Below, in pieces: positions 20,471 through 35,809 of a stretch of 55,375 nt of DNA (positions are counted from its first letter, which is position 1; the number at the start of each line of letters is the position of its first letter). Source of the DNA: Muribaculaceae bacterium (GTDB lineage: Bacteria > Bacteroidota > Bacteroidia > Bacteroidales > Muribaculaceae). Position numbers and translations under genes: made by a program. Below the pieces are notes generated by a model that was given only the letters and a program-made list of their open reading frames with translations, was not told where the DNA came from and did not search any database. The stretch spans positions 1 through 55,375 of the forward strand of contig JAFZKD010000007.1 in the NCBI GenBank assembly GCA_017553785.1, given 5' to 3'.

Positions 20471-22912
20471 TTACTCAGTCTTGATGCTGTTGACAGGATT
20501 CTCACGCGCGGAGCGCCAACTTTGAAGCACAACCGTCCCCATGGTGACGCCTCCTACAAGCAGCAGTGCCAACGGTGGAATCCACCATAAGTTTTTGAAA
20601 ACCAGATCTACATGTTGGTTAAAATATCTCAATGTGAGCCATCCAAAGTACAATGCTAGAGGTGTAGCGATGACAAAACTGATGAGGATGTAAGGCACAT
20701 AATGTCGGCACAGCATCCAAATGATCTCACTGGTTGTCGCACCAGAGACCTTGCGGATACCGATTTCCTTGCGACGGTACTCGGTCTCGAACAATGTAAT
20801 GCAGAACACACCTATCAGTGTGATGATAAGACATATGACGGAGATGAGTCCTATCATGTTCACATAACGGAATTCATTCTCATAAGTCTTATCCTTTAGC
20901 AAGTCATTGAAATAGTTTGCCTCAATAGCGGTTTCTCCAAAATATTTCTTCATTAATTCGTCAACCTGTTGTTTAACGCTCTCATGGTCGGCATTTGTGG
21001 CCACTCTTATATTTACCACGCATAAAGAATCATCCTTTTTCAGGACAAAACCAAAAGGTGTGTTGGTTGTGACACGTGTCGTGCTAAAACGAATATTCTC
21101 GCAGACCCCCACTACTATGGCACTATCAGCATCTTCATCAATAGAACTGATAGGAATGGTGTCCCCTATTCTTAGCCACTTCATGTGTTCTAATGCCGCC
21201 TGATTAAAGATTATGGCCGCAGTGTCGGAATCTACAAAATCACGTCCTTCAATGAGATTGATTCCCATTGTACTCAAGAAGTTGCCATCAGTGTGCATAA
21301 GAGTGTGTTTATAAAGTTTACCCTTATGTTCGTTCAAAAGGAAGTTGTGTCTGTCAGTTAGTCCAATTGGATTTTCAGAAAAGGTCGCTTTTTCAATATC
21401 TTGAAGATTAATCAACTCATCGTAGAATCGATGAATGACTACTGAGTCTTCCCAGGGTGACAGTTGGGCAATCAACAGGTTTTCCTTATTATAGCCGTAG
21501 TTTGATTTATAAATATAGTCAATTTGTGCATACAGGACTCCTATATAGATGACCATGAGCATGGAAATGAATAATTGCATCCCAACCAAAATCTTACGTA
21601 ATCTTCGCCCTTGTGGCGTAAGTCCGAATGTGCCTTTTAGTGCCAATACAGGCTGAAACGAAGTGGCGTAGAATCCCGGGTATACACTAGCCGCGATACC
21701 CAATACAACCGCAATGCCCAACATGAGTAATGCCAATTTCCAATGGTTTGTCAGAGCGATATAGCCTTCGGTCAGATTACCATAAACAGGCAAGGCTGAG
21801 ATGAGGCCACATACAGCAATTGCAAGTATACAGGCCAAAACCGATATCATGATTCCTTCGGATACAATGCCTTTTCTGAGCGATTCTCGAGAAGCGCCTA
21901 ATACCATCCGTGTGTTCAATCCACGTACGCGCATCGGGCTCTCGGCAAGTGTGAAATTCAGGAAATTGATCGTGGCGATAACGATAAGAAGCAAACAAGA
22001 GATAATCAAGATGTATAGCATGCCATGGTATCCGCGATCACTTGTTGAGAATGAAGAGTGTTCAAAGTAGCTATTGGCCAATGGAGTGAACTTGAAGTTT
22101 GTTTTATCAATGGCTTCTTCAAAGATGGGAATGATATTGTATTTGTTTTCTTTCTCCCATTCCGTCTTCATTAGTTCTATAATGGATTGTTTGAATCTGA
22201 ATTCAAAATCGTCCCAGTCACTAGGAACCGTTTTAAATTTGACAATGCAGTTATAATCGCAATCAAGTGAGAGACCATCTTCGTTATTAATGTTGCGATA
22301 GATACGATTGACAAATTCGCTGTTAGCCGGGAAATCCGCATAGACACCTCTCACTATTTTGTGTTTAGGTTTTCCATCCCACACATATTCCATGACCGAG
22401 TCTTTTGCTTTTTCGGTGCCAAAATACTCTTTAGCGATATTGGCAGGAATGATGTAGCCTTCTTTCCCATTTTTATCTTGATCGTTCCATTCAATATCGC
22501 CGTCAACTTTTGTGCCGTTAATGGCACTTATAGCTGTGTTGTTGGCTGTAGCGAATGCATATCGTATTTCCTTACCGTCTTTTTTTTTGAATAGCCAGGA
22601 GTCGAAATACTTGATGTTGGCAGGGGCATAGGTCAATGAGTAGCTTTCCACTTCAGGCATGGAATCCAAAGCGTCAGCAAAAGGGCGGCATACCAAGTTA
22701 CTGGAGGCCCATTCATTATACACATAGTTGCTTTCCATGCTATATAATCGTTCATACCCTTTAATTCCATGATTGTAAGTTGTCTGGAATTTGATTTGCG
22801 TCATGAGCAGGTAGAAAGTGGCATAGGCCAATACTAGCCCCACCAGATTGAGCATTGTCGGCAACTTGAAGCGTCTTGCCAAGTATAATATATTTCTAAA
22901 AACTTCACCCAT
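20471..22912 (-). CDS. ABC transporter permease, double FtsX/MacB type
   Basis: This 813-residue permease has an N-terminal span (about 18-38), a large MacB-type periplasmic domain, and a first FtsX domain with three spans (about 295-430: LYILIISCLLLIVIATINFLNF, ESPMRVRGLNTRMVLGASRESL). A second span set with another periplasmic domain follows, then a C-terminal FtsX domain (about 685-805: ISVICLIITLIGVFCITLFETEYRRKEIGIRKVSGATTSEI). This fused ~800-residue form is common in Bacteroidetes, often several copies beside a NtrY/AtoC-like two-component pair. Here the pair lies 9 kb away, on the far side of the secreted-protein cluster. The substrate is unknown. Confidence 0.92.
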   Translation of the reverse strand: MGEVFRNILYLARRFKLPTMLNLVGLVLAYATFYLLMTQIKFQTTYNHGIKGYERLYSMESNYVYNEWASSNLVCRPFADALDSMPEVESYSLTYAPANIKYFDSWLFKKKDGKEIRYAFATANNTAISAINGTKVDGDIEWNDQDKNGKEGYIIPANIAKEYFGTEKAKDSVMEYVWDGKPKHKIVRGVYADFPANSEFVNRIYRNINNEDGLSLDCDYNCIVKFKTVPSDWDDFEFRFKQSIIELMKTEWEKENKYNIIPIFEEAIDKTNFKFTPLANSYFEHSSFSTSDRGYHGMLYILIISCLLLIVIATINFLNFTLAESPMRVRGLNTRMVLGASRESLRKGIVSEGIMISVLACILAIAVCGLISALPVYGNLTEGYIALTNHWKLALLMLGIAVVLGIAASVYPGFYATSFQPVLALKGTFGLTPQGRRLRKILVGMQLFISMLMVIYIGVLYAQIDYIYKSNYGYNKENLLIAQLSPWEDSVVIHRFYDELINLQDIEKATFSENPIGLTDRHNFLLNEHKGKLYKHTLMHTDGNFLSTMGINLIEGRDFVDSDTAAIIFNQAALEHMKWLRIGDTIPISSIDEDADSAIVVGVCENIRFSTTRVTTNTPFGFVLKKDDSLCVVNIRVATNADHESVKQQVDELMKKYFGETAIEANYFNDLLKDKTYENEFRYVNMIGLISVICLIITLIGVFCITLFETEYRRKEIGIRKVSGATTSEIIWMLCRHYVPYILISFVIATPLALYFGWLTLRYFNQHVDLVFKNLWWIPPLALLLVGGVTMGTVVLQSWRSARENPVNSIKTE

Positions 22913-22942: not shown

Positions 22943-22973
22943 CAAATATAGTCCTTTTCAATAGAATAGTCAA
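22943..22973 (-). promoter_or_regulatory. Promoter of the ABC transporter operon
   Basis: On the minus strand, TATATTTG (22950-22943) fits TAnnTTTG, with TTG (22973-22971) exactly 20 bp upstream. The leader is about 25 nt. The palindrome at 23019-23039 is centred about 92 bp upstream of the expected start. Confidence 0.7.
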
Positions 22974-23018
22974 TGTTTTTTTTGAAAAACCTCATGGTGT
23001 ATAGATTTTTCACGAAAT

Positions 23019-23039
23019 AGTGTCAAATTATTTTACACT
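23019..23039. promoter_or_regulatory. Candidate operator AGTGT-N11-ACACT (ABC transporter copy)
   Basis: AGTGT (23019-23023) and ACACT (23035-23039) are separated by 11 nt (CAAATTATTTT). It lies between the terminator of the 23211-25103 gene and the promoter of the ABC operon, so it is neither coding nor in a terminator position. It shares 14-15 nt (GTGTCAAATTATTTT) with the diverged site at 31759-31782. Confidence 0.55.
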
Positions 23040-23113
23040 TTTCCTGTTTTCAGCAATAAGAATGATTGATGCCCTAATGACATCATCAGCATAATTGATG
23101 GTAAATAATCATG

Positions 23114-23152
23114 AAAAAATCCCCAAAAAGTTGGGCTAGCAACTTTTTGGGG
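23114..23152 (-). terminator. Strong intrinsic terminator of the 23211-25103 gene
   Basis: CCCCAAAAAGTTG (23121-23133) and CAACTTTTTGGGG (23140-23152) form a perfect 13 bp stem with a 6 nt loop. On the minus strand the stem is followed by ATTTTTTC (A-run 23114-23119 on the plus strand), as expected for the minus-strand gene ending at 23211. Confidence 0.88.
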
Positions 23153-23210
23153 GGCTTATTGTTCACTCAAACTGATTGTCAAAAGTGAAGCAAAGTCTCA
23201 CTTTCTCTAA

Positions 23211-25103
23211 TCATTTTTCTTGCAAAAGCATGTCAATCAGATCCGTCACATCAGTGATGCTGAAATCGGTAGCGTTTCCGTTGACATCACTCTTCTTGCC
23301 GTTCAGCAGGTGGTCAATCAAGTCTGTCACATCACTGATGTTTACCATGCCGTCGTTATTGAGATCCCACAGATTGGATGCCGCGGCAGGAATCACGAAT
23401 TGGTCGCCATTGGTGTAATAGAGCTTGTTGCCAGTGAACATGGTGGACAGCAAACCGCTCTGAGCACATGGTATAGTGACGTCCCATTCAATGCAGTCGG
23501 GAGTTGTCTCACCTCTGTTGCCTAAAGTCAGGGTGTTCCACGTCTCAACATCAGTCGAGCAATTCAGCAGGCTCTCACCATTCTCATCGTCGTAGCCAAT
23601 CGTTTGTACGGGACACGTCATTGTGCCGTCAGAATGAATGTTCATATAATTGCGCACACAACCCATTCCATACATATTGTACACATACAGGTCACCATCT
23701 TCAGTCTGATACATATAAACAGGTACTTGATACTTGTTGTCGCCGGATGAATCTTGCCCAGGCTTGCGAACAGACGTATTGCCAGACAAATGGTTATGCA
23801 GGTTTTCCCAAGAGGAATCATTGCCCATGATATCTTCGCCACCGCTTCCGTCTACAGGTTTAATAGGTTTACCAACACCTAGAGTTCCAGTTCCAGGTCC
23901 AAGATCAATCGTCCTAAAAACTCTGGATTCAACATGAATTAAGCTGTCATGCAAGTGAATAACCCTGCCAAATGAAGTGTTGTGGCTTGAAGTATTATTG
24001 CCCATGAAATCTCCTCCACCGCTTCCGTCTCCAGGTTTAATGGGTTTACCAACACTAGACCCTACGGGCCCAGGTCCAAATCGATTCTTCATACTTACTT
24101 GACCTAAAACATGTCTCAGGCTGTCCACAAGCAGGTTGTGCACATGAGCCAGGCTGTCCACAATAACCTTATTAAATGGAGTGTTGTTGTTCGAGGTACT
24201 GTTATCTTCAGTCAATCGTTCTCTACCGTTTTCAGGTTTAATAGGTTTTATGGGCTTTCCAGAACCACCAGTACCTTTAGGTCCATTAGGCCGCAAATCG
24301 GTAACCTTTGCCCATCCAGGAAAAACAGATTCTGAGCCTTCTTCTACCGAGGAAGCGCAAAAAAGTTCATCCTTGATTCCTTTCCATGCGTCTTCCGAGA
24401 GAGTTACCTTCTGGTCCTCACGAGTGAATTCATGCACACCATTAGGCATCCTGAGACACATGTTGCGGAAGATGAGTGATAATGCGCCAATTGTGTCGGT
24501 CGAGACAACGGCCTGAGTCTCACGATTAATGCTGGTCGCAACTTCCTCGATGTAGAGGGAGAAGCCTGTATCAAACATGATCGAGCCATCGTTATCGATC
24601 ATGCCATTGATGTCAGCCAAATCGGCATCATCCGACCACAAGCATTCTTCTGGCACAACATAAACGTTTTGCTCCCTTTTGATCTGGATTTCACCCTGCT
24701 GTTCAAAGCTCACGACGATAGCCAAAGAAACACCAGCCTTTAATGTGACCTTACTTGCATGATAATCCACCGCTACAGGAAGAGAGATATCCCCGTAGAA
24801 ACCCTCGATGACCACATGGCCATCACCACTATTGGCAGATGGGGTGAATGTTGTCATCCATCCACTGTTAAAAGGGACTTTCTCCACCGAGAACGTGCCG
24901 TCAGCATCGTTCCAGGTCCAGTCGCAGAGATCGACAGTGGCAATCCTGCACCCCGTCAAATCGTTGAATGACAATTGGCCCGAATTATCCAAGCCAGAAA
25001 CTGATCCTCCAGTAGTGGGCCTGAGTTGTGGCTCTCTGGCCGCCAAGGCGAAAACGGCACCAATACTGATGATTGTGAACAATAAACTCTTTTTCATTTC
25101 CAT
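23211..25103 (-). CDS. Secreted repeat protein with shared novel domain and dockerin-like C-terminus
   Basis: This 630-residue protein has a signal peptide (about 1-21) and an N-terminal beta-rich region. The central part has three degenerate repeats built around GKPIKP (near residues 284, 353 and 412), with Gly/Pro/Asn-rich flanks and His-rich helices (VIVDSLAHVHNLL, IHLHDSLIHVESRV). A domain at about 450-575 (VYMYQ, YNMYGMG, MNIHSDGTM, TNGDQFVIP) is shared with the protein at 29892-31412. A dockerin-like module ends the protein (about 579-630: DLNNDGMVNISDVTDLIDHLL, then FSITDVTDLIDMLL). I recognise no enzyme. It has its own promoter and terminator, so it is probably monocistronic. Confidence 0.72.
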   Translation of the reverse strand: MEMKKSLLFTIISIGAVFALAAREPQLRPTTGGSVSGLDNSGQLSFNDLTGCRIATVDLCDWTWNDADGTFSVEKVPFNSGWMTTFTPSANSGDGHVVIEGFYGDISLPVAVDYHASKVTLKAGVSLAIVVSFEQQGEIQIKREQNVYVVPEECLWSDDADLADINGMIDNDGSIMFDTGFSLYIEEVATSINRETQAVVSTDTIGALSLIFRNMCLRMPNGVHEFTREDQKVTLSEDAWKGIKDELFCASSVEEGSESVFPGWAKVTDLRPNGPKGTGGSGKPIKPIKPENGRERLTEDNSTSNNNTPFNKVIVDSLAHVHNLLVDSLRHVLGQVSMKNRFGPGPVGSSVGKPIKPGDGSGGGDFMGNNTSSHNTSFGRVIHLHDSLIHVESRVFRTIDLGPGTGTLGVGKPIKPVDGSGGEDIMGNDSSWENLHNHLSGNTSVRKPGQDSSGDNKYQVPVYMYQTEDGDLYVYNMYGMGCVRNYMNIHSDGTMTCPVQTIGYDDENGESLLNCSTDVETWNTLTLGNRGETTPDCIEWDVTIPCAQSGLLSTMFTGNKLYYTNGDQFVIPAAASNLWDLNNDGMVNISDVTDLIDHLLNGKKSDVNGNATDFSITDVTDLIDMLLQEK

Positions 25104-25221
25104 TTTTGTTTAAAATTGTTATAAGCTGTCGGGTTGGATTTCTGAAGCTGGGTGTCATTGAGATACTCTGTCAAATAACACGAAAAATAATCATCCATCA
25201 TCCAAGGTCTTTTATTTGTTG

Positions 25222-25229
25222 CAAATATA
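25222..25229 (-). promoter_or_regulatory. -7 box upstream of the 23211-25103 gene
   Basis: TATATTTG on the minus strand (25229-25222) followed by C fits the consensus. The leader to the ATG at 25103 would be about 115 nt. No convincing -33 box is visible. Confidence 0.5.
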
Positions 25230-25512
25230 CAGGATTAAATGCGTTGTCACATTATTATAAGTATATATTAACATTATTTTAACCTTGTCGAGCCTCAATG
25301 TCATCCCCACCATACTAGCCCGTGGTAAAGGGGATTGTGTTATCGCTTGTAATAAGCGAACATTCTCGCGACAGAAATAGCTACCTTATCACAGCATGTT
25401 AATAATTCTCTTTAAGGATTTTGGCAACAAGAGCTACTTGCGGCCTCTGATCCATTACAAAAATAGAAAGAATGCTAGTTCAAATCCAAGAAAAAACACC
25501 AAAAAAATCAAA

Positions 25513-25533
25513 AGTGTAAAAAAATTTGACACT
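25513..25533. promoter_or_regulatory. Candidate operator AGTGT-N11-ACACT (tandem pair, member 1)
   Basis: AGTGT at 25513-25517 and ACACT at 25529-25533, with 11 nt between. Its centre is 23 bp from that of the next copy. A weak minus-strand promoter can be read beside it: TTTG at 25512-25509 and TGGATTTG at 25488-25481, 20 bp apart, with one mismatch to TAnnTTTG. Confidence 0.55.
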
Positions 25534-25535
25534 TT

Positions 25536-25556
25536 AGTGTAAAAATTTTTTACACT
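25536..25556. promoter_or_regulatory. Candidate operator AGTGT-N11-ACACT (tandem pair, member 2)
   Basis: AGTGT at 25536-25540 and ACACT at 25552-25556, with 11 nt between (AAAAATTTTTT), nearly perfectly palindromic. Apart from this pair, 25230-25607 holds a small hairpin (CGCTT/AAGCG near 25343-25360) and no gene I can support. Confidence 0.55.
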
Positions 25557-25607
25557 TTTGGAAAAACACAGCTTTTTTATTGCTGTTTTTAGTCGCTGGA
25601 GGTCTTG

Positions 25608-25724
25608 TTACTTGATCACCTTCCCGGCAGAGCCATCGCTCATCTTGATGATGTTGATGCCAGGCTGCATACAGGTTGGTCATGTGCTGCTTGCTGCAAC
25701 AGGGCAGGTATTCGTTCAGTCTAT
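25608..25724 (-). pseudogene. Decayed T9SS-type C-terminal sorting tail, in frame behind the LRR gene
   Basis: Reading on after the stop of the 25725-27329 gene in the same frame gives stops mixed with recognisable tail sequence. It ends with MQPGINIIKMSDGSAGKVIK and a TAA at 25608-25610. The motif (PGINIIKMSDG...KV.K) is that of the last strand of type A T9SS sorting domains. The distance between the two stops is 117 nt, a multiple of three. I read it as the remnant of a sorting tail once attached to this gene or to a replaced neighbour. Confidence 0.5.
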
Positions 25725-27329
25725 TCAGTTGTTATTCAATAGTTTGTCGATAAGAGTGGTAACATCCTTGATGCCCAATTCGCCATTGCCATCCACATCG
25801 GCATTGATGGGATTGAATGCGGCAGTATCGTTTCCGAGCAGTTTATCAATAAGTGCGGTCACATCGCTGATGCTCAGTTGACCATCACAGTTAGCGTCAC
25901 CGTTACCCAAGACGGTCATTCCCTCAATGTGCTCAAAACGACTCCAGATAAGGGCCTCGCGATAATCATTGACCAATACCCGTGGCACTCGCAATACGGT
26001 GCTATCATAGGCTTGGGTGCTAAACGTCCAGTTGTAGTTGGTCGTGATTGTGAATTCGGGTGGAGCGGGAGCCCAGCATGTAATTGTATCGGGAACGTGT
26101 CCTACAAAAGTGCGATCTTCTAAGAGGGTGACATTCTCGCCCAAGGTGATGTTCTTAAGCGAGCCGAGCGTGGTTTCTGTTGTTCCCCAGCCTTCTTCCC
26201 TATAGCCAATACTCGGATAACTATACGAATCGCTAGAAAGAACACAGTACACATGACCTCCAAAGAAAGCACTAAGACCAATATTTTGAGCCTTGGTTAA
26301 ATCAATTTCCGTCAGTTTGTTGCAACCGGCGAAGGCCCTTTCGCCAAATGTAGTGACATTGTTGAGATTGATATTGGTCAAATTGCGGCAGTCATAGAAT
26401 GTATTATCCTGAATCGTAGTAATGGCATCAGGGAGTGAGATGCTGGTCAGTGAATAGCAATTGAGGAAGGCGCCTTCACTCATGAACTGGAGCGCGGGAT
26501 TGAGGGTAATGCCCTGAAGTTGGTGGCACTCGGCAAAAGCATATCTGCCGATGGATGTGATGCCATTGGCCTCATCAATAGTTTCGAGATTGGTGCAGTA
26601 AGCAAAAGCACCGTCACCAATCACCTTGACCGACCTTGGAATTTCAAAGCTTTTGAGGCTGGTACAGTTGAAAAACGCGGAGTTGCCAATCGTGTCCAGC
26701 GACATGCTATTCTGGTTGTAATCGCTAGAATAATTGAAATATACATGCTCCAATTTTGGACAATCTAGGAACATGCATGAAGATATTTTATTAATCGGCC
26801 TTTGGAATTCAACCGTTTTGAGACGTTCACAGCCTCGAAATTCTCCAGATGTCGGATGATTAACATACCAGCTTGAATTCCCTCCAAATGTGAGCGGTTC
26901 GACATTGTAATCATAATAATAATTATTACCATCAAAATAGATGGTTTCAATACTTGATCCTGCAAAAGCTCCTCGTCCGATTGTGGTGACTGTGGACGGA
27001 ATAACTACATGCTTCAAATCGGAGAATCCACCAAATCCACCATAAATGCTGGTAACAGGAAAATCCCCAATCATCGAGGGTACATAATAAACAGAGTCGG
27101 GATTCCATTCACCATACTGGATTGAGTAGAATTCATCGGTTTCAGGATTCCAGGCTCGCGATATCAGCGATGCCGTACCGGTCCAGGTATCATCATCATA
27201 AATGAGCTCGTACTCAAAACCCTCGAAATCTACAATTTCATATCTTACCTCAGCCGAGGCAGTTTGATAACAAGCGAATGCCAATAATAAAACGCACAGG
27301 CTTTTAATGAAGAAGTGATTCATTATCAT
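25725..27329 (-). CDS. BspA-like leucine-rich-repeat protein with dockerin-like C-terminus
   Basis: This 534-residue secreted protein has a signal peptide (about 1-26) and a beta-rich N-terminal stretch. About ten LRR_5/BspA repeats follow (LKHVVIPSTVTTIGRGAFAGS, LKSFEIPRSVKVIGDGAFAYC, LTSISLPDAITTIQDNTFYDC). The C-terminal dockerin-like module (about 477-534) reads NGDANCDGQLSISDVTALID and ADVDGNGELGIKDVTTLID. It resembles the 8217-9110 protein but with more repeats. It is the last gene of a four-gene minus-strand unit (34 bp after the next gene). A decayed T9SS tail lies in frame behind its stop. Confidence 0.87.
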   Translation of the reverse strand: MIMNHFFIKSLCVLLLAFACYQTASAEVRYEIVDFEGFEYELIYDDDTWTGTASLISRAWNPETDEFYSIQYGEWNPDSVYYVPSMIGDFPVTSIYGGFGGFSDLKHVVIPSTVTTIGRGAFAGSSIETIYFDGNNYYYDYNVEPLTFGGNSSWYVNHPTSGEFRGCERLKTVEFQRPINKISSCMFLDCPKLEHVYFNYSSDYNQNSMSLDTIGNSAFFNCTSLKSFEIPRSVKVIGDGAFAYCTNLETIDEANGITSIGRYAFAECHQLQGITLNPALQFMSEGAFLNCYSLTSISLPDAITTIQDNTFYDCRNLTNINLNNVTTFGERAFAGCNKLTEIDLTKAQNIGLSAFFGGHVYCVLSSDSYSYPSIGYREEGWGTTETTLGSLKNITLGENVTLLEDRTFVGHVPDTITCWAPAPPEFTITTNYNWTFSTQAYDSTVLRVPRVLVNDYREALIWSRFEHIEGMTVLGNGDANCDGQLSISDVTALIDKLLGNDTAAFNPINADVDGNGELGIKDVTTLIDKLLNNN

Positions 27330-27363
27330 AATTATAGTCGTTTAATGAGATTATATAAAAAGA

Positions 27364-27990
27364 TTATGAGCCTTTTAGGAGTCTGTCGATAAGGGTCGTG
27401 ACATCGGTGATTGAGATGTTGGTATCTCGATTGACGTCGGCGCTGACGGGAGCATCACCACCATTGAGCAGCAGGTCGATGAGGCAAGTCACATCGGTGA
27501 TACTGACTTGCCCGTTGAGGTTCACGTCACCAAGCAGGGGCACCACGCAACTGGTGTCACTGAATGTGACTTCCGCGCCTGATGTGAGCGTGAATATGAT
27601 GTTCTTTAGAGTGATAGAGGCCGGTGTCATGAACGAGTCGCTGGTAGTGACTTGGAATGTGGCCAACGCACCGCTATTCCCGCTATAGGGTTTCACCCTC
27701 ATGGAGTAGGACATGAGGCGTATGCCCCCATCCGGGAGAATGCTTGCCGCGATATTGTGGTCCGATGCCTTGCGGTCTGTCAGGTGGAAATTGGCCGCGG
27801 TCATGCCATCGGGCAGGTACATGTCTGCCTGAAATGCGGTGTACTGTTCCACGTTGTCCAGCATGATACTTACCTCTAGGGTCTCTTGAGGCAGAACGGC
27901 AAAGTCCTGGATAAAGAAGAGGTCGGTTGCGGCAACACTCAAGGCTGCCGCAACGACCATCAAAAAGGAAATGAATCTTTTGGTCATCAT
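27364..27990 (-). CDS. Secreted single cohesin-like module plus dockerin-like module
   Basis: This 208-residue protein has a signal peptide (about 1-21), one cohesin-like beta-sandwich (about 23-148: YTAFQADMYLPDGMTAANFHLTD, SGNSGALATFQVT), and a dockerin-like module (about 152-208: GDVNLNGQVSITDVTCLIDLLL, ADVNRDTNISITDVTTLIDRLL). The cohesin-like part is closely similar to the third module of the next protein (28004-29845), so one arose from the other by local duplication. Cohesins bind dockerins in cellulosomes, so this could be an adaptor. The fold assignment is by pattern only; a carbohydrate-binding role is an alternative. Confidence 0.72.
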   Translation of the reverse strand: MMTKRFISFLMVVAAALSVAATDLFFIQDFAVLPQETLEVSIMLDNVEQYTAFQADMYLPDGMTAANFHLTDRKASDHNIAASILPDGGIRLMSYSMRVKPYSGNSGALATFQVTTSDSFMTPASITLKNIIFTLTSGAEVTFSDTSCVVPLLGDVNLNGQVSITDVTCLIDLLLNGGDAPVSADVNRDTNISITDVTTLIDRLLKGS

Positions 27991-28003
27991 AGCTTGATAC
28001 CAA

Positions 28004-29845
28004 TTATTTCAGCATGAGTTTGGTCGCCTTTCCGTTGGCGGTAACCACTACCACTCCGGTAGTTTGGGCCGGAATGCTGGTGCGTCCAGCATCAACATTC
28101 ACGCTAAAGGCGCGTCCCATCATGTCGCTGATAACAACCTTCTGGCTGACAGGACTCTCGACAATGATGTTGTTGCCATCGGTGAAGATGCGCAGATTGT
28201 CAGTGAGTTCCTGTGCTGCCGTCATCTCGCCCCTCACATTGATGCTGATGCTGTCCATGGCAACCGTCTGGCATGAGGTGGTCACCATCTCAATGCCCTC
28301 GACAGAGATATCGCCGTCAACATTACCTGTCGCAGTCACATCAAAGGTGAGCAAGCCGCCGTGATTCCCTGAGATTGGTGACAATTGGGCCGAATAGCAC
28401 ATCACTCTCTGTCTGCCGTCCGAGAGCATGTTGGCATCAAGTTCGTGGTAGCCGGCACGGTCTGTCAGACGGAAATTGCTTGCCGTCATTCCATCGGGCA
28501 ACAGTAGATCAAACTGGAATGCGGTGTACTCCATATCATTATTGAGCTCGATGCTCACAGTGCGGTTCTCTCCAGGATGAAGAAGAATGTCGTCAGCGCT
28601 CAAGGCGTCGTTGTTTTCGCCCATTTCCGGGGCACGCATCATGGACTTGTAGGGGTGGAGCACCTTGTTGGCGATGAGCACCACGTCGGTAACGGTGATT
28701 TCGCTGTCCTCATTCATGTCGGCGGCACCGAAGAGGAACGGATCGGGATCGAGACCGAGCACATGCTGGGCGGTAACAACAACGTCGGTAACGGTTACCT
28801 TGCGGCTGTTATTGGCATCACCCTTGAGATACTCCAGCACATTCAACGCGCCTATGGTCTCACCGCAGTTCAGTTCCACAAACGAGGTGGTGGTCACCCT
28901 GATGTTGCTCAGGTTCAACTCGAAGTCTCCCCATTGGCCATAAGGTGTGGCAATGGTGATGTAGAATAGTTCGCCCTCGTTGCCTGTAATGGCTTGCAGC
29001 GAGGGAGAGTAGCACAACATGCGAATAGCGCCATCCTCTTGGACATTGGTGTAAAGCTCGTGGTCATTGCTCATGCGGTCGGAGGACAATGGATTGGGAT
29101 TTTCCTCATTGCCCGGCACCAGCTGGAAGCCTTCGGGCAGATACAGGTCGGCTTGGAAAGCGGTGATGGCTTCATCGTTGGTCATTGAAACGGGGACGAT
29201 AATCGTGTCGCCATGCAGCACATCGGTTTTGTCTCCGTGCTCGCAATTCACCACCTCGGCCTGGCCGAACGTGAAGATGGGATGCTCACCATCAGGCTCA
29301 GGCTTTCTGGTAATCGTGCCGCTTTTGCTTGACTGACAGCGGGTCACGGTTTCACCACGCGTGTCGGTACCGGCTCCAGTTTTGGCAGAGATATGGATTT
29401 TTCCGCTCTCGAAACTGTCATCGACGCTTAGGGTGAGGAAAAACATCTCCTCATAGTCCCCTGCTTCCCATTTGACGACACCATATTCCGCCAAATTGCC
29501 GTTGCCGTCGGTGTCCCAACCCCCCACTGTCGTGGCGGTCATCAGTAATGAGAGGTCCTCATTGTGTCTGAGTACGGCAGTCACAGTGTTGCGCTCGCCG
29601 TTAGCGTCGAGATAACTAAGGGTCATATCCCGACCGTTGGATATCGAGGTGGGTGTCAGCCCCTCGGGGTAGGTCACTTCAATCTGGAACCCACTCACTC
29701 GGCCATCGAAATGGGCTTTTACGGGCACAGTGATTTCGTGCTTATAGTGTGGAAACTCCGTATCCTCAATACAAAAGTAACTGGGGCCTGCCATGGCAAC
29801 ATTGGCTATGGTCAATGCCATGATATATAATAATATCTTTTTCAT
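28004..29845 (-). CDS. Scaffold-like secreted protein: three cohesin-like modules, dockerin-like module, sorting tail
   Basis: This 613-residue protein has a signal peptide (1-19), then cohesin-like module 1 (about 20-185, most diverged: GFQIEVTYPEGLTP) and module 2 (about 195-338: ITAFQADLYLPEGF, ITGNEGELFYITI). An internal dockerin-like module follows (about 340-400: KGDANNSRKVTVTDVVVTAQHVL, ADMNEDSEITVTDVVLIANKVL). Module 3 comes next (about 415-545: YTAFQFDLLLPDGMTASNF, SGNHGGLLTFDV). The end resembles a T9SS type A sorting domain (about 550-613: PVSQKVVISDMMGRAFSV...ANGKATKLMLK). Repeated cohesins with one dockerin is the plan of cellulosome scaffoldins. Partners are not known. The gap to the next gene is 13 bp. 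Confidence 0.72.
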   Translation of the reverse strand: MKKILLYIMALTIANVAMAGPSYFCIEDTEFPHYKHEITVPVKAHFDGRVSGFQIEVTYPEGLTPTSISNGRDMTLSYLDANGERNTVTAVLRHNEDLSLLMTATTVGGWDTDGNGNLAEYGVVKWEAGDYEEMFFLTLSVDDSFESGKIHISAKTGAGTDTRGETVTRCQSSKSGTITRKPEPDGEHPIFTFGQAEVVNCEHGDKTDVLHGDTIIVPVSMTNDEAITAFQADLYLPEGFQLVPGNEENPNPLSSDRMSNDHELYTNVQEDGAIRMLCYSPSLQAITGNEGELFYITIATPYGQWGDFELNLSNIRVTTTSFVELNCGETIGALNVLEYLKGDANNSRKVTVTDVVVTAQHVLGLDPDPFLFGAADMNEDSEITVTDVVLIANKVLHPYKSMMRAPEMGENNDALSADDILLHPGENRTVSIELNNDMEYTAFQFDLLLPDGMTASNFRLTDRAGYHELDANMLSDGRQRVMCYSAQLSPISGNHGGLLTFDVTATGNVDGDISVEGIEMVTTSCQTVAMDSISINVRGEMTAAQELTDNLRIFTDGNNIIVESPVSQKVVISDMMGRAFSVNVDAGRTSIPAQTTGVVVVTANGKATKLMLK

Positions 29846-29891
29846 AACTGAATCAATTTTAATGGATTATACTGTAAGAATGTTCTGCTGA

Positions 29892-31412
29892 TTATTTATT
29901 GGGCCAAGACCCGGTTTCGAAGTAGTTATAGAGGATTTCAATATCATCCCATCCGATTTCACCGTCCCAATTGCAGTCGGCGTTGTCTAAGCTGAATTCG
30001 TCCGAGTCATCATAGTCGCCACTGCGCAGATGGTCAATCAGGGTAATGATATCATAGATGTCAATTTCATCATCGTTGTTCACGTCACCACGAACAGGAT
30101 AGTAATCGCATGGTAATACGAACTCACTGCCATCAGTGAAGCTCAGCACGTTGTTGGTGAGAGGATAGGTAGGCAGAATCATGCTAGCGCCATCGCTCAC
30201 GCGAACAATATTCGGCAGAACGTAGCATGCGCGATCCCACCTGATGGAGGAGGGTTCTACAGTGCCAACGATTTCGGTGTCACCGGTGAGTTCATCGTTT
30301 TCGTCAAGATTATACACCCAATACCAGCGAACATTGTCCCAATTGTAGTCACTGCCATAGTAGTCGGCATAGTAGTTCCTTAACCTAGGGTCTATTTCTC
30401 CAACAGGCCAATCCAGAGGCATTACCATCGAACCATCGCAGTGGATATTCATCTCGAAACCAGGCATACCCAAGCCGTAGAGGTTGAACACGACAGCGGT
30501 GGTGTCAAACTGGTACATGTAAACGTCCTCAGTACAGTGCCTAGTGCTGCTGGCTTCTATGTCATAGTCATGGGTAGCGTTGGGAACGATGAACTGGGTG
30601 CCTACGTAAATTTCTTCGAACCAGGTGGTATCACTCGACACAACAGAATAGGTGTAACCACTAAATGAACTACCAGAGCGCTTGTAGGTCACCAATGCCT
30701 GATAACCGGCAAACACATAGGGCAACTCACTGCTAAACTCGATGCTGCCATCAACGTACAGGGTACCGGGAATGTCGGAGAAGTCCTCACTCTCGCCGAT
30801 ATACCAGTTATAGTCAACAAGAATCGAGTAGTTAACGGTGTCGGTACGCCTCCAGTTGCTTCCGCCACCAGTTGCTTCACCCTCGATGGTGTCATCTTCA
30901 AGTAGAACACCTGTAGGTAAAGTTACTTCGCCAGTAGTATAGTCAATGTCAATGGGCAGATACCAGGTGCTGCCGGTGTACTGGCTCCAATAGAGACCAG
31001 CGCAATAGAGTTGGCCCTCATATATGTCCCAATAGACGCCCTCACCGCCACGGAAGTGGTAATCATCCCACTCGAGACCGTCGTCACCCATCTTGTAAAC
31101 ATAACGGAAATCCAGATAGTCATTGGATGCGATATCGTCATCAGCAAGACGTCGGGGAGCCTTTTTGGCTAAACGGTTGTCGTTGGGTGTTACATGATGC
31201 TTCTTGAAGAGGTCTCTAGGTGTCATGAAGCTGTTGCCGTTACCGTTGCCATTCTCAGCCTTCATGCTCATGAATGTGTTCATGTGAGGTTTGTTGGTCA
31301 TCATCACCTTATGGTTCACCTTGGTGAAATCGGCCGTTTTAGTGAGCGGTGCTGCCGCTGATGCGGTCAGACATGCTCCCAAACAGATTAAATAAATGAT
31401 CAAATGTTTCAT
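29892..31412 (-). CDS. Secreted protein with shared novel domain and dockerin-like C-terminus
   Basis: This 506-residue protein has a signal peptide (about 1-20) and a low-complexity stretch with basic residues (about 60-90). A Tyr/Trp-rich beta region follows (about 100-290: GLEWDDYHFRGGEGVYWDIYEGQLYC). A domain shared with the 23211-25103 protein occupies about 295-445 (VYMYQ, FNLYGLG, MNIHCDGSM, TDGSEFVLP). A diverged dockerin-like pair ends it (about 449-506: RGDVNNDDEIDIYDIITLIDHL, ADCNWDGEIGWDDIEILYNYF). I recognise no enzyme. It is the first gene of the four-gene unit, about 315 nt downstream of a promoter overlapped by a palindrome. Confidence 0.75.
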   Translation of the reverse strand: MKHLIIYLICLGACLTASAAAPLTKTADFTKVNHKVMMTNKPHMNTFMSMKAENGNGNGNSFMTPRDLFKKHHVTPNDNRLAKKAPRRLADDDIASNDYLDFRYVYKMGDDGLEWDDYHFRGGEGVYWDIYEGQLYCAGLYWSQYTGSTWYLPIDIDYTTGEVTLPTGVLLEDDTIEGEATGGGSNWRRTDTVNYSILVDYNWYIGESEDFSDIPGTLYVDGSIEFSSELPYVFAGYQALVTYKRSGSSFSGYTYSVVSSDTTWFEEIYVGTQFIVPNATHDYDIEASSTRHCTEDVYMYQFDTTAVVFNLYGLGMPGFEMNIHCDGSMVMPLDWPVGEIDPRLRNYYADYYGSDYNWDNVRWYWVYNLDENDELTGDTEIVGTVEPSSIRWDRACYVLPNIVRVSDGASMILPTYPLTNNVLSFTDGSEFVLPCDYYPVRGDVNNDDEIDIYDIITLIDHLRSGDYDDSDEFSLDNADCNWDGEIGWDDIEILYNYFETGSWPNK

Positions 31413-31735
31413 AATAATATAACGATTTTAAATAGTTAGTAAATAATGTTCTTTTTATATTGAGCGTTGCCAGGTTCCCGAGTCAATATCATTGTTGTTC
31501 AATTTTTGCGCTGTATATATTGTGAAATCATCCTATTCAAATGGTATGGCTGCTAGGAACCTGGTGCCGCCCGATGTGTGTTTTACTAGCAAGGCAGCTT
31601 CGTCTGATGTGTTCAGCCTGTGCTGAGCCACATCGTTAAGCTTATGAAAAAATTAGCACTCATAATCATATCATCTCTGATATTTCTAATAGTTTTTGTT
31701 ATGAAAAGGAAAAACAGTTTCCTGTCTCGCTGATG
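31413..31735 (-). ncRNA. Long, possibly structured 5' leader of the cohesin/dockerin operon
   Basis: The promoter at 31736-31768 implies a leader of about 315 nt. It contains inverted repeats CCAGGTTCC (31470-31478)/GGAACCTGG (31556-31564) and CGATGTG (31572-31578)/CACATCG (31629-31635), plus a small CAGC/GCTG hairpin near 31613-31625. This would fold into two adjacent stems. I match it to no known riboswitch. A plus-strand small ORF overlaps its promoter-proximal end. Confidence 0.35.
31644..31733 (+). CDS. Candidate 29-residue single-span membrane protein
   Basis: A 30-codon frame starts MKKLALIIISSLIFLIVFV and ends MKRKNSFLSR. It has a short basic N-terminus, about 17 hydrophobic residues and a strongly basic C-terminus, the layout of bacterial small membrane proteins. 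It lies in the gap between the cohesin/dockerin operon and the two-component genes, on the strand of the latter, about 210 bp before the response regulator. I see no clear promoter or ribosome binding site, and it overlaps the antisense leader, so it may be chance. Confidence 0.3.
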   Translation: MKKLALIIISSLIFLIVFVMKRKNSFLSR

Positions 31736-31768
31736 CAAAGTTAGAATGTGCCGTTTTGTCGTGTCAAA
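31736..31768 (-). promoter_or_regulatory. Promoter of the cohesin/dockerin operon
   Basis: On the minus strand, TAACTTTG (31743-31736) is a full consensus -7 box followed by C. TTTG (31768-31765) lies 21 bp upstream as the -33 box. The -33 box is inside the diverged palindrome 31759-31782. Confidence 0.72.
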
Positions 31769-31782
31769 TTATTTTGGCACGA
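31759..31782. promoter_or_regulatory. Diverged palindrome over the -33 box
   Basis: TCGTG (31759-31763) and CACGA (31778-31782) are the outer arms of a near-perfect 24 bp palindrome containing CAAATTATTTTG. It shares GTGTCAAATTATTTT with the site at 23019, but its right arm differs (GGCAC). A repressor or a polymerase-contacting activator bound here would act directly on the operon promoter. Confidence 0.45.
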
Positions 31783-31790
31783 AAACGCGA

Positions 31791-31811
31791 AGTGTAAAAT
31801 TTTTTTACACT
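31791..31811. promoter_or_regulatory. Candidate operator AGTGT-N11-ACACT (regulator side, member 1)
   Basis: AGTGT at 31791-31795 and ACACT at 31807-31811, with 11 nt between. It is centred about 71 bp upstream of the operon start on the minus strand and about 139 bp upstream of the response-regulator start on the plus strand. Confidence 0.55.
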
Positions 31812-31813
31812 AA

Positions 31814-31834
31814 AGTGTCTATTTTTTTTACACT
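31814..31834. promoter_or_regulatory. Candidate operator AGTGT-N11-ACACT (regulator side, member 2)
   Basis: AGTGT at 31814-31818 and ACACT at 31830-31834, with 11 nt between. Its centre is 23 bp from member 1, the same spacing as the pair at 25513-25556. It is about 94 bp upstream of the cohesin/dockerin start, close to the 92 bp seen at the ABC transporter. Confidence 0.55.
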
Positions 31835-31904
31835 TTGGCTTAAAAGCACCTAAAAAGGTGCAAAAAATATTTGTCGTCGGTGTGTTTTTTCTCGGTATTA
31901 TGAG

Positions 31905-31934
31905 TTGTTTTTTTGAGAATATTTTGTAATTTCG
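31905..31934 (+). promoter_or_regulatory. Promoter of the two-component operon
   Basis: TAATTTCG (31927-31934, one mismatch to TAnnTTTG) with TTG (31905-31907) 19 bp upstream. The box ends 8 nt before the ATG at 31943, the same spacing as at rlmD, so the mRNA would be nearly leaderless. Confidence 0.55.
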
Positions 31935-31942
31935 CTGCCACT

Positions 31943-32470
31943 ATGCAGAATTACGGAACGATATTGGTTGTCGATGACAATGAGGCGATACTTACAGCGT
32001 TAAAGTATTGCTTGGCAGGGACATTTGAAAAGGTGTTGACATTATCCTCTCCCGACAGGGTGCTCACGCTACTGGGGCAGGAAGAGGTAAGGGTCGTCCT
32101 GCTGGATATGAATTTCACTTTGGGCGTGAATAGTGGTCAGGACGGATTGGTGTGGCTGCAGGCCATCCACAAGCATCATCCCGACATCCCTGTAGTGCTG
32201 ATAACGGCTTATGCCGACATTCAGTTGGCGGTGCGCGGCCTCAAGCGCGGCGCAGCCGATTTTATCACCAAGCCATGGGACAATGAAGAGCTGGTGCGTA
32301 AACTCAAGGATGTGTGTGACAAAGCTACGGAGATGACTACGCTCGATGAACTGGAGGCAGACCACATCCGTCGTGCCATAGATCGTTGCCATGGCAACCT
32401 GACGAAGGCCGCAGAACTCCTGGGTGTCACTCGCCAAACCCTGTATAATAAAGTGAAAAAACTGGAATGA
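31943..32470 (+). CDS. Response regulator with receiver and Fis-type HTH but no AAA+ domain
   Basis: This 175-residue regulator has a receiver domain (about 5-125: VVDDN, phospho-acceptor Asp55 in LLDMNFT, Thr88, Lys110 in FITKPWD). A short linker and a C-terminal Fis/HTH_8 domain follow (about 135-175: DHIRRAIDRCHGNLTKAAELLGVTRQTLYNKVKKLE). The receiver closely resembles those of Bacteroidetes AtoC-like sigma-54 activators, but the ~240-residue AAA+ domain is absent, giving a RegA/ActR-like layout. Such proteins act at ordinary promoters by binding palindromes as dimers. The ATG at 31943 was chosen over the upstream TTG (31913), which lies before the -7 box. The kinase gene overlaps by 4 bp. 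Confidence 0.9.
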   Translation: MQNYGTILVVDDNEAILTALKYCLAGTFEKVLTLSSPDRVLTLLGQEEVRVVLLDMNFTLGVNSGQDGLVWLQAIHKHHPDIPVVLITAYADIQLAVRGLKRGAADFITKPWDNEELVRKLKDVCDKATEMTTLDELEADHIRRAIDRCHGNLTKAAELLGVTRQTLYNKVKKLE

Positions 32471-33339
32471 GCAACACGGCTTGGTTATGTATTGTTCTCG
32501 CTGTCGCAGCACTGTTGGTGTTGTGGTTTTGGTTGCATCAGCGCATGCTGGTTCAGCGTGCCCGTTTGATGCAGGAGGCGATACGCAATCGAGATCTGAT
32601 GTTCAGGTTGCCCACGCGCCACATGTTCAGCGGTGAACGGGCACTTCAAGAAGCACTTAACCAGCTGGGAGAGCACATTCGTGAGCAGGTTAATCTAGGT
32701 GAGGTGGAGTCATGGGAGAAACTTACCCGTGTGCTTACCCACGAGATCATGAATGCGACAGCGCCCATTGCCAGTATCAGCCAGTCGATGCTGAATCATC
32801 CCGCCGTGAAGGATTCTGACCTTGAGGAGGGCATAAACGCTATTCACAACACGGTGGTTCACCTCAACTCCTTTGTGGACGGTTATCGCAAGTACTCGGA
32901 ATTACAGAAGCCTGTGCCGCTACCCGTTAATCTGGTGGATGCCGTCAAAAATCTGGAAACGCTGTACCCCGAGGTTGAATGGAAAAACCAACTGACTGGA
33001 GAGATTATCGTCAAGACTGACCCCAATCTGTTGCGCCAAATTCTCATTAACCTAGTTAAAAATGCCGTTGAGGCTGGAGCCAAGACCCAAGGCGTGGAAT
33101 GTGAACGTAGCGAGGAGGGAAAAGTGCTGCTTTATATGAGCAACGATGGAGAAATGATTCCTGCCGACGCACGCTCGTCCATCTTTATTCCTTTCTTTAC
33201 CACAAAGCGCAAAGGAAATGGCATCGGGTTGTCGTTGAGTCGCCGTCTGCTCACCCTTCAAGGCGGCATGATGTCGTTGCTTGACGAGCCACGTTCGGGC
33301 TTTCACACGTCATTTCTCTTGGAGTTTCCTGTTTCATGA
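32467..33339 (+). CDS. Sensor histidine kinase, NtrY-like, minimal sensor
   Basis: This 290-residue kinase has one N-terminal span (about 4-24) and almost no periplasmic part, so it senses a membrane or cytoplasmic signal. The H box is VLTHEIMNATAPIASI (His92), the N box is ILINLVKNAVEAG (Asn199), and the G box is KGNGIGLSLSRRLLTLQGG. Bacteroidetes relatives are paired with AtoC-like regulators and adjacent MacB-type ABC transporters. Its start overlaps the response regulator stop (ATGA), so the two are translationally coupled. A stem-loop follows. Confidence 0.92.
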   Translation: MSNTAWLCIVLAVAALLVLWFWLHQRMLVQRARLMQEAIRNRDLMFRLPTRHMFSGERALQEALNQLGEHIREQVNLGEVESWEKLTRVLTHEIMNATAPIASISQSMLNHPAVKDSDLEEGINAIHNTVVHLNSFVDGYRKYSELQKPVPLPVNLVDAVKNLETLYPEVEWKNQLTGEIIVKTDPNLLRQILINLVKNAVEAGAKTQGVECERSEEGKVLLYMSNDGEMIPADARSSIFIPFFTTKRKGNGIGLSLSRRLLTLQGGMMSLLDEPRSGFHTSFLLEFPVS

Positions 33340-33448: not shown

Positions 33449-33463
33449 CGGCGTGATTCAATG

Positions 33464-33535
33464 AGTTTGGGGTGCCCTTGCGGCTGAGATCATACCCATC
33501 GGATCTGATCCGGACAATGCCGGCGTAGAGAACAA
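33464..33535 (+). promoter_or_regulatory. TPP (THI-box) riboswitch
   Basis: Conserved elements appear in order: GGGGTGCCC (near 33469), GGCTGAGATCATACCC (33482-33497), GGATCTGATCCGGACAATGCCGG (near 33501-33523), CGTAGAGAA (33523-33531). This is the thiamine pyrophosphate aptamer; the last block differs from CGTAGGGAA by one base. The receptor ATG lies about 20 nt after the aptamer, so control is probably at translation. Confidence 0.93.
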
Positions 33536-33553
33536 CTTATTAATTAAAAATTA

Positions 33554-35809
33554 ATGAAGAAGACATTATTGATGGTTGCCACAGTGTTGGCAACCCTTGG
33601 CGCAGCCGCACAGCAGGCAGCGACCGACACAGTGCCCACCGTCGCCCTGAGCGAGTTGGAGGTGCTGGGTACTCGCGCGAGCGAGAATACTCCCGTAGCG
33701 TTTACAAATATCACTGGCAAACAGCTTGCTGCCGAGAACCATGGCCTGGATATCCCGTTCCTGCTGTCGATGACACCGAGTGTCATCACCACCAGCGACG
33801 CGGGTGCCGGTGTAGGCTATACATCGATGCGCGTTCGAGGTACCGATGCCACCCGCATCAACATCACGGTGAACGACATCCCGATGAATGATGCCGAAAG
33901 CCACAGCATCTTCTGGGTGAACACGCCCGATTTTGCCTCGTCGGTGCGTGACCTGCAGGTGCAGCGCGGTGTGGGTACCTCGACCAATGGAGCAGGAGCC
34001 TTTGGCGCCAGCGTGAACATGCGCACCCAGGGTTTCGCACGCGATGCGTTTGCCGAGGTGTCAGGCAGCTACGGCTCGTTTAACACCAATAAAGAGACCC
34101 TGCGCGTTGGCAGTGGCATGCTTGGCGATCACTGGGCTTTTGAGACCCGCCTGTCGCACATCGGCAGCGACGGCTACCGTGACCGCGCCACCAGCGAGCT
34201 GGTGAGCTACTTTGGGCAGGTGGGTTACTTCGCTGACCGCACATCGTTGCGCTTTGTCACCTTTGGCGGCAAGGAGGATACCTACCACGCCTGGGACGGC
34301 ATCAGTCGAGACGACCTAAAGAATAACCGTACCTACAATCCTAATGGAGAAATCAAGCACGCAGGCCAGGTGACCGGCTTCTATGACGACCAGAAGGACA
34401 TCTACCGCCAGACCCACTACCAGCTCATCTGGAACCAGACGTTCAACCCCATGTGGAAACTCAACGTGGCGTTGCATTATACCGACGGCTACGGCTATTA
34501 CCAAGAGTATAAGAACGCGCGTACGCTCAAAGAGTATGGCCTGGAGCCGGTGGTCACGGCCGAAGGCACGAGCAAGAAGGCGAGCCTGGTGAGGAAGAAA
34601 TGCCTTGACAGCGGTTTTGGCGGCGGCGTGTTCTCGCTGCAATACAGTGGTGAGCGACTGGCAGCGACACTGGGCGGTGGCATCAACCGCTACACTAACG
34701 ACCACTACGGCAACGTTATCTGGGTGGAGAACTATACAAGCGTGCTGGCCCCTGACCACGAGTACTACCGCAACGATGCCCGCAAGAACGACTTCAATAT
34801 CTATGCCAAGGGCAACTACATGATTACTGGCGGCCTAAGTGCCTATGCCGACCTGCAGTTCCGACACATCGGCTACCGCATGAAAGGCGACAACGACAAG
34901 TGGGACTGGACTGCCAACCCCGAGCACCTGCAGGTGCTTGACGTGGACGAGACCTTTGACTTCTTCAACCCCAAGGCAGGTCTGAACTGGCAGATTGATG
35001 ACCGGAGCCGCGCCTACGCCTCGTTTGCTGTGGCACAGAAGGAACCGACGCGTAACAACTACAACGACGGCCCCCTGGTGAAGCATCCCACCAGCGAGAA
35101 ACTCTATGACTGGGAGGTCGGTTACGAGTTCCGCACTGGTGACCTCTATCTGGGCGCCAACTTCTACTACATGAAATACAAGGATCAGCTTGTACTCAAC
35201 GGCAAGATCAACGAGATCGGCGAGTTGATGGCCGAGAACGTTCCCGATAGCTACCGAATGGGTCTCGAACTTATGGCCGGCTACCGCTTCACCGACTGGC
35301 TGCGCTGGGACGTGAACGCAACCCTGAGCCGCAACCGCATCCAGGACTATGTGGGCTATGTGAGCGACTACGACGCCGACAGCTGGGACGAGATGTGGAC
35401 CCAGACCGCCATCGAAGCCGGCAATACCACCATCGCTTTCTCGCCCAGCCTGACTGTGGGCAGCATGATTGCACTGGATTATAAGGGTTTCACGGCAAGC
35501 CTGCAGTCGCAGTATGTGTCGCGCCAATACCTTGACAACTTTGAGCGCGAGGAGGATTCGCTAGATCCCTATTTCGTCAATAACCTTGATATGGCCTATA
35601 CCTTTAAGTTGCCCAATATCCGCAGTATTACCATAGGGGCGACCATCTATAACCTGTTTGACGAGAAATATGAGACCAACGGCTACTCGATGACTAGCGC
35701 ATTGTATCCTGGCGGCAGCAAGGACAACAAGTACACCCTGTACAGCGATCCCCGCTTCTATCCCATGGCCGGCATCAACATGCTTACCCACCTAACCTTC
35801 CGCTTTTAA
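33554..35809 (+). CDS. TonB-dependent outer-membrane receptor, thiamine-regulated
   Basis: This 751-residue receptor has a signal peptide (about 1-20), a TonB-box region (TVALSELEVLG), and a plug domain (about 45-160: NITGKQLAAENHGLDIPFLLSMTPSVITTSDAGAGVGYTSMRVRGTDATRINITVNDIPMND). A 22-stranded barrel ends with MLTHLTFRF, the aromatic terminal strand. The TPP riboswitch upstream and the PnuT-type transporter downstream point to uptake of thiamine or a derivative across the outer membrane. Ligand assignment rests on context, which is strong for this family in Bacteroidetes. Confidence 0.9.
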   Translation: MKKTLLMVATVLATLGAAAQQAATDTVPTVALSELEVLGTRASENTPVAFTNITGKQLAAENHGLDIPFLLSMTPSVITTSDAGAGVGYTSMRVRGTDATRINITVNDIPMNDAESHSIFWVNTPDFASSVRDLQVQRGVGTSTNGAGAFGASVNMRTQGFARDAFAEVSGSYGSFNTNKETLRVGSGMLGDHWAFETRLSHIGSDGYRDRATSELVSYFGQVGYFADRTSLRFVTFGGKEDTYHAWDGISRDDLKNNRTYNPNGEIKHAGQVTGFYDDQKDIYRQTHYQLIWNQTFNPMWKLNVALHYTDGYGYYQEYKNARTLKEYGLEPVVTAEGTSKKASLVRKKCLDSGFGGGVFSLQYSGERLAATLGGGINRYTNDHYGNVIWVENYTSVLAPDHEYYRNDARKNDFNIYAKGNYMITGGLSAYADLQFRHIGYRMKGDNDKWDWTANPEHLQVLDVDETFDFFNPKAGLNWQIDDRSRAYASFAVAQKEPTRNNYNDGPLVKHPTSEKLYDWEVGYEFRTGDLYLGANFYYMKYKDQLVLNGKINEIGELMAENVPDSYRMGLELMAGYRFTDWLRWDVNATLSRNRIQDYVGYVSDYDADSWDEMWTQTAIEAGNTTIAFSPSLTVGSMIALDYKGFTASLQSQYVSRQYLDNFEREEDSLDPYFVNNLDMAYTFKLPNIRSITIGATIYNLFDEKYETNGYSMTSALYPGGSKDNKYTLYSDPRFYPMAGINMLTHLTFRF

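Follow-up and report, generated by a model that had tools for sequence, protein, structure and literature searches.

A putative tandem-palindrome operator at sigma-A-type promoters, and the NtrC-like response regulator without AAA+ domain that probably acts at it, in a Muribaculaceae bacterium

The window, a stretch of 55,375 nucleotides from a Muribaculaceae bacterium, carries a two-component system, an ABC transporter and a group of cohesin- and dockerin-bearing genes, and copies of one palindrome lie between these units (Table 1). The response regulator combines a receiver domain (PF00072, 75.9 bits) with a Fis-type helix-turn-helix domain (PF02954, 54.8 bits), both of which are found in NtrC-type regulators, whilst a Pfam scan found no AAA+ domain, the central domain of that type. 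The gene for the ABC ATPase is likely to lie in the same operon as that for the FtsX-type permease. A Pfam scan of the secreted-looking 630-aa protein returned no match.

Table 1. Genes, putative operators and predicted promoter elements of the locus.
Feature	Position	Strand	Basis
ABC ATPase, 224 aa	19740..20414	-	Pfam ABC_tran; best NCBIfam models DarD and MacB, below cut-off
FtsX-type ABC permease, 813 aa, predicted target	20471..22912	-	Pfam FtsX; NCBIfam ADOP and DarB below cut-off
-7 box TATATTTG of the ABC-permease promoter	22943..22950	-	sequence and register
Single putative operator TAGTGTCAAATTATTTTACACTT	23018..23040		leftward -7 box 68 bp from its edge
630-aa protein, secreted-looking, C-terminal repeats resembling dockerin, predicted target	23211..25103	-	sequence, by eye
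-7 box TATTTTTG, 47 bp from the pair	25458..25465	-	sequence and register
Tandem putative operator pair, 23-bp period	25512..25557		pattern matches and register
BspA-type LRR plus dockerin protein	25725..27329	-	Pfam; dockerin just under cut-off
Dockerin protein	27364..27990	-	Pfam
Cohesin/dockerin protein	28004..29845	-	Pfam
Dockerin-bearing protein, first gene of a predicted target operon	29892..31412	-	Pfam Dockerin_1
-7 box TAACTTTG of the dockerin operon, 47 bp from the pair	31736..31743	-	sequence and register
Tandem putative operator pair, 23-bp period, between divergent units	31790..31835		pattern matches and register
Likely -7 box TAATTTCG of the regulator, 92 bp from the pair, out of register	31927..31934	+	sequence
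Response regulator, receiver plus Fis-type HTH, recognition helix TRQTLYNK	31943..32470	+	Pfam PF00072, PF02954
Histidine kinase, 290 aa	32467..33339	+	Pfam HATPase_c; AtoS best NCBIfam model, below cut-off

Exact copies of AGTGT-N11-ACACT number five in the window, against 0.03 on average and at most 1 in 100 dinucleotide shuffles. The five positions given in a first-pass annotation of this DNA (23019, 25513, 25536, 31791 and 31814) were all recovered, with no others in the window; it had described the copies as intergenic, and indeed no listed ORF of at least 80 aa overlaps any of them, and the identical 23-bp spacing that it had noticed in both tandem pairs was found as well. When two mismatches were allowed, 19 matches were found in the window where 20.8 were expected, which is the level of chance, and the signal therefore resides in the exact copies. 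The supposed clustering of the motif within 9 kb did not survive a search of the window's own 2.54-Mb assembly (80% complete), in which ten exact copies are present; eight of these have an AT-rich core and the two that do not (C33 and C122) may be chance occurrences. The genome-wide scan that had been proposed, run with the refined pattern AAGTGTNNAAWWWTTNNACACTT and up to three mismatches, gave 15 matches, the weakest of which may be due to chance, and 0 for the reversed control.

The anatomy of the site was defined from 74 non-redundant sites (at most two mismatches) in loci fetched from congeneric genomes that carry the regulator. The matrix reads A-A-G-T-G-T-(C/A)-(A/T)-A-A plus its mirror, and the site, close to AAGTGT(C/A)WAAWWWTTW(G/T)ACACTT, occurs singly or as tandem pairs exactly 23 bp apart. 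At the score used, 23 of the 74 sites have a partner palindrome at +23 and 22 have one at -23, and every other offset up to 80 bp is empty. Grouping gave 64 clusters, 33 pairs and 31 singles, and the distal site outscores the proximal one in 22/32 pairs. An outward-facing sigma-A-type promoter lies at a fixed distance in 59 of the 64 clusters, the fixed upstream position relative to a complete promoter that marks a class I activator, although these clusters are partly orthologous promoters of related genomes and the counts are not independent. The -7 box, TAnnTT[T/C]G, lies 46-48 bp from the pair in 32/33 cases and 67-70 bp from the single site in 27/31, and of 104 -7 boxes within 300 bp of sites, 68 occupy the 11 register positions, where 1.4 would be expected. 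A -33 TTG is present in 58/64 promoters, compared with 8/64 and 12/64 in two control windows, and -7 boxes facing toward the sites show no distance peak in the 64 clusters. The consensus TAnnTTTG has been reported at -12 to -5 for a flavobacterium (PMC9723704, excerpt); from this placement and the register distances, single operators and the distal operator of a pair are predicted to centre near -92, and the proximal operator near -70, from the inferred start, a placement as for an activator. Within the window, the register holds between the single site and the ABC-permease promoter, between the first pair and the leftward promoter of the gene for the 630-aa protein, and between the second pair and that of the leftward cohesin/dockerin/LRR operon. 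The first-pass annotation had placed copies about 92-94 bp upstream of the ABC and dockerin promoter starts; the distal sites centre at about -91 and -93 when the -7 box is set at -12 to -5 (PMC9723704, excerpt), which is close to, if not exactly, what it had claimed.

This geometry bears on two other accounts of the palindromes. That the same regulator binds the sites and represses the promoters is unlikely: the sign of regulation cannot be read from DNA, and divergent arrangements and multiple sites are also found at repressed promoters, but the operators stand clear of the -33 and -7 boxes and keep fixed upstream positions in the 59 in-register clusters. Moreover, the three full-length homologues that were scanned (442-448 aa) carry a sigma-54 activation domain (AAA+), which suggests an activator ancestor. 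Terminators or copies of a dispersed repeat are scarcely credible readings of the palindromes. As RNA, the tandem pairs can form structures of -14 to -21 kcal/mol, more stable than those of shuffles, but the one single copy that was folded is weak (-6.4 kcal/mol), and a separate strong hairpin exists at 23110-23160. Random scatter or a terminator role had been named in the first-pass annotation as the outcome that would count against its regulon; instead, the sites lie upstream of promoters in one register and their number depends on the presence of the regulator.

The latter dependence was found by comparison of 101 genomes of the genus, 28 of which have an orthologue of the regulator (at least 79% identity). 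At least four sites were present in 26 of the 28 regulator-bearing genomes and in 0 of the 73 congeneric genomes without the regulator, some of which are incomplete assemblies, and the mean number of sites per genome was 10.1 with the regulator and 0.27 without (Fisher p 4e-22, ignoring kinship). The exceptions are G058, which has no site at two mismatches but carries a single weaker one next to the regulator, and G080, in which two sites were found; under a relaxed pattern neither stood apart, regulator-lacking genomes being equally high. In a tree of GlyRS from 40 genomes, 27 of them regulator-bearing, a single-gene tree with weak support for many inner branches and a bootstrap that had not converged, the regulator label needs 10 gains or losses, at least seven of them forced by well-supported branches, and is no more clustered than shuffled labels (150/500 as low). 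The five supported sister pairs have 4/0, 9/3, 8/0, 12/0 and 0/1 sites in the regulator-plus and regulator-minus member, respectively. It was also observed that in G058 and L049 the regulator is present with a single recognisable site, next to its own gene and the ABC operon, an arrangement known from the other genera; this may be an unexpanded or shrunken regulon inside the expanded clade.

Genes besides the regulator may share the distribution of the sites across genomes. In a search of 20 genomes for an orthologue of the M16 target (at least 75% identity), the window's genome had one, as did four of nine further genomes with the regulator, three of which keep the operator; none of the ten genomes without the regulator had it. 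Co-occurrence alone cannot name the binding protein where several genes may be distributed in this way, and the palindrome could be bound by another co-distributed DNA-binding protein of which the response regulator is merely a neighbour. This we regard as very unlikely, given that the motif adjoins regulator homologues at other loci and that the operator varies with the recognition-helix residue of the regulator across genera. Outside the genus, a listed homologue is found no more than 8 kb from nine of the 75 motif matches listed (two of the nine share one locus), where about 0.6 would be expected. In eight loci that were fetched, translations examined by eye place both a homologue of the regulator and an FtsX-like ABC operon close to the sites.

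Covariation of helix and operator was first seen in four short homologues from other genera, in which TLYR replaces TLYN in the recognition helix and the palindrome is TGTATGAAAATCATACA. The test set comprised 37 short regulators from public records (L119-L155), of which L119, L120, L121 and L154 belong to the window's genus and had already been seen. An exact TGTATGANNNTCATACA was present in the fetched locus of 13/14 regulators with A, S, R or K at the helix position, compared with 1/23 with N. The TGTATGA version is carried, for example, by Leyella stercorea DSM 18206 (L145), a cultured commensal relative. The sole non-N miss, L148, is a locus that holds only 65 bp upstream; hybrid half-sites occur at several N-type loci (for example L122, L125, L127, L128, L129 and L134), and no operator was seen in the fetched DNA of two N-type loci, L119 and L151. 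By a strict tandem count, at least three TGTATG half-sites were found at 1/25 N loci and 12/13 non-N loci (p 6e-8, ignoring kinship), in a set that includes the four hypothesis-giving loci and the N duplicates L014/L154, L017/L119 and L024/L120; the strict tandem search found no tandem operator in 20/45 N and 6/19 non-N loci. Other-genus homologues with a changed helix residue have a different palindrome with the same period and promoter distance. In LuxO, Arg427 is part of the recognition helix, and DNA binding is lost when it is replaced by alanine (PMC11407668, excerpt); by motif reading this residue is equivalent to the one that varies here. Per-genome counts of TGTATGANNNTCATACA (at most one mismatch) were dropped as a test: five genomes with short non-genus orthologues gave 1-4 matches, not always above the reversed control (3 and 3 in G322), and the information lies in position and 23-bp pairing, not in number.

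Four lines, namely co-occurrence, the motif beside homologues, the helix/operator covariation and the fixed sigma-A promoter distances, support the proposal of the first-pass annotation that this Fis-type regulator acts at the palindromes on the ABC and dockerin units, and on these sequence comparisons it very probably named the right protein. Its regulon of three units was too narrow, since the predicted regulon is genome-wide and many of the predicted targets are secreted proteins. Self-regulation, which it had also proposed, fared less well: the second pair lies 92 bp from the regulator's likely -7 box, out of register, and therefore does not establish self-control in the window. Of 20 regulator loci of the genus that were examined, 10 have a strong site immediately upstream of the regulator gene. 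Predicted targets were taken as the longest ORF starting at most 600 nt from an in-register -7 box, which gave 58 picks; after removal of three under 150 aa and four kinase picks, 51 proteins were scanned, some of them cut by the locus end. Plain counts of families among the 51 were LRR_5 11, dockerin 10, C10 peptidase 6, Spi inhibitor 6, FtsX 3, S41 peptidase 3, DUF805 3, esterase 3, M16 peptidase 2 and cohesin 2, alongside targets of another kind (UbiA family 2, PP-loop family 2), and signal-peptide-like starts were seen by eye in many.

Full-length relatives of the regulator show a different arrangement. A sigma-54-like TGGC-N7-TTG box lies within 160 bp of the operator at 16/25 full-length loci, against 0.3 expected from shuffles, and all of these boxes are 50-53 bp from the operator edge; the pattern was defined after viewing six of the loci, and in the other 19 it was found in 12. 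The same box is near the operator in 3/37 short loci, one of which, L173, seems to be a full-length gene whose frame is broken. The 46-48 bp sigma-A distance holds in 31/33 short loci with regulators from named records (28/30 without L120, L121 and L154, which belong to the window's genus), compared with 1/19 full-length loci. The operator period is 23 bp in 36/38 short tandem loci, N and non-N together, and 21-22 bp in 13/14 full-length loci, counts that contain the three duplicate pairs listed above. Two short regulators, L156 and L158, have a 21-bp operator period yet 47 bp to the sigma-A -7 box, and are possible intermediates between the two layouts. Loss of sigma-54 was ruled out as a cause of the switch, as the rpoN domain is present in 279/297 genomes of the family, that of the window included.

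If the full-length form is ancestral, as we infer, these differences may be read as a series within the Bacteroidales. It is reasonably probable that an NtrC-type activator lost its ATPase, that its promoters moved from sigma-54 to sigma-A with a new exact distance, that the operator was recoded with one helix residue, and that in one clade a local switch for a pump then grew into a genome-wide regulator of genes for secreted proteases and dockerin/LRR surface proteins. If true, this would be a testable natural example of the conversion of a sigma-54 activator to ordinary promoters, with a candidate one-residue specificity switch that can be tested in vitro.

Several known systems share parts of this arrangement. 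Like the NtrC family of bacterial enhancer-binding proteins, the regulator has a receiver and a Fis-type HTH, and by eye its full-length relatives have the same kind of palindrome beside FtsX-type ABC operons; unlike that family, it has no AAA+ domain, and its targets in the genus have TTG/TAnnTTTG sigma-A boxes rather than sigma-54 promoters. The ActR/PrrA/RegA family also consists of a receiver plus Fis-type HTH without AAA+, as in the window's regulator, but the relatives and operators of the latter tie it to NtrC-type regulators of the Bacteroidales, and it scores 62.8 bits against an NCBIfam ActR_PrrA equivalog cut-off of 250. The operator presumably resembles the TyrR box, and activation at sigma-70 promoters by NtrC-type proteins without a working GAFTGA loop is a further resemblance that we assume. 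The GlrR/QseF operator TGTCN10GACA is likewise a TGTC...GACA palindrome of an NtrC-type response regulator (PMC8745638, excerpt); here the spacing is N9, with a tandem 23-bp period and sigma-A promoters, and the regulator scores 57.7 bits against the GlrR/QseF equivalog cut-off of 763. A survey of sigma-54 promoters found the ABC permease class COG0577 among those enriched in Bacteroidia, which fits the full-length systems found here; the window's version is sigma-A, and the survey, in its excerpted text, names neither regulator nor operator (PMC12316311). Consistent with the first-pass annotation, which knew of no such regulator-operator pair, none was found in the titles and abstracts returned by searches of the open-access literature, nor was a description of the control of these Bacteroidota surface and secreted proteins found in that literature. 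The parts are thus of known kinds and the new element is their combination and the evolutionary series; a layout of regulator, operator and promoter is proposed for this set of proteins.

From the computed motif, spacing, promoter register, co-occurrence and covariation we infer that the palindromes are, in all likelihood, operators through which the response regulator, with its adjoining kinase, activates sigma-A promoters. Phosphorylated dimers of the regulator would occupy one 23-bp palindrome with its centre near -92, and in many cases also a second that abuts it, near -70, and would activate transcription, probably by contacting RNA polymerase in the manner of a class I activator. In the window this would switch on the FtsX ABC operon, the gene for the 630-aa protein and the cohesin/dockerin/LRR operon, and across the genome many of the activated targets would be secreted or surface proteins (LRR/BspA, dockerin, and C10, M16 and S41 peptidases). 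The regulator itself would descend from NtrC-type sigma-54 activators by loss of the AAA+ domain, with targets that are now sigma-A promoters. The signal may be envelope or peptide-export stress, perhaps sensed via the transporter.

Further features were observed in the window. A third, degenerate palindrome, CGTGTCAAATTATTTTGGCACG, at 31760-31781 overlaps the likely -33 region of the dockerin-operon promoter; it lies about 30 bp from the first operator, outside the 23-bp period. The predicted leaders of the 630-aa protein gene (about 360 nt, 25104-25465) and of the dockerin operon (about 330 nt, 31413-31743) gave no Rfam match at gathering score, and opposite the latter a small ORF-like sequence, about 29 codons long and hydrophobic at its start (31644-31733, plus strand), was noticed by eye. 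An RNA-based account of the palindromes was set aside, as the sole Rfam match in the window at gathering score was a TPP riboswitch away from them. This riboswitch (33458-33550, plus strand) is immediately followed by an ORF of 751 aa (33554-35809), the product of which, judged by eye, resembles a TonB-dependent receptor.
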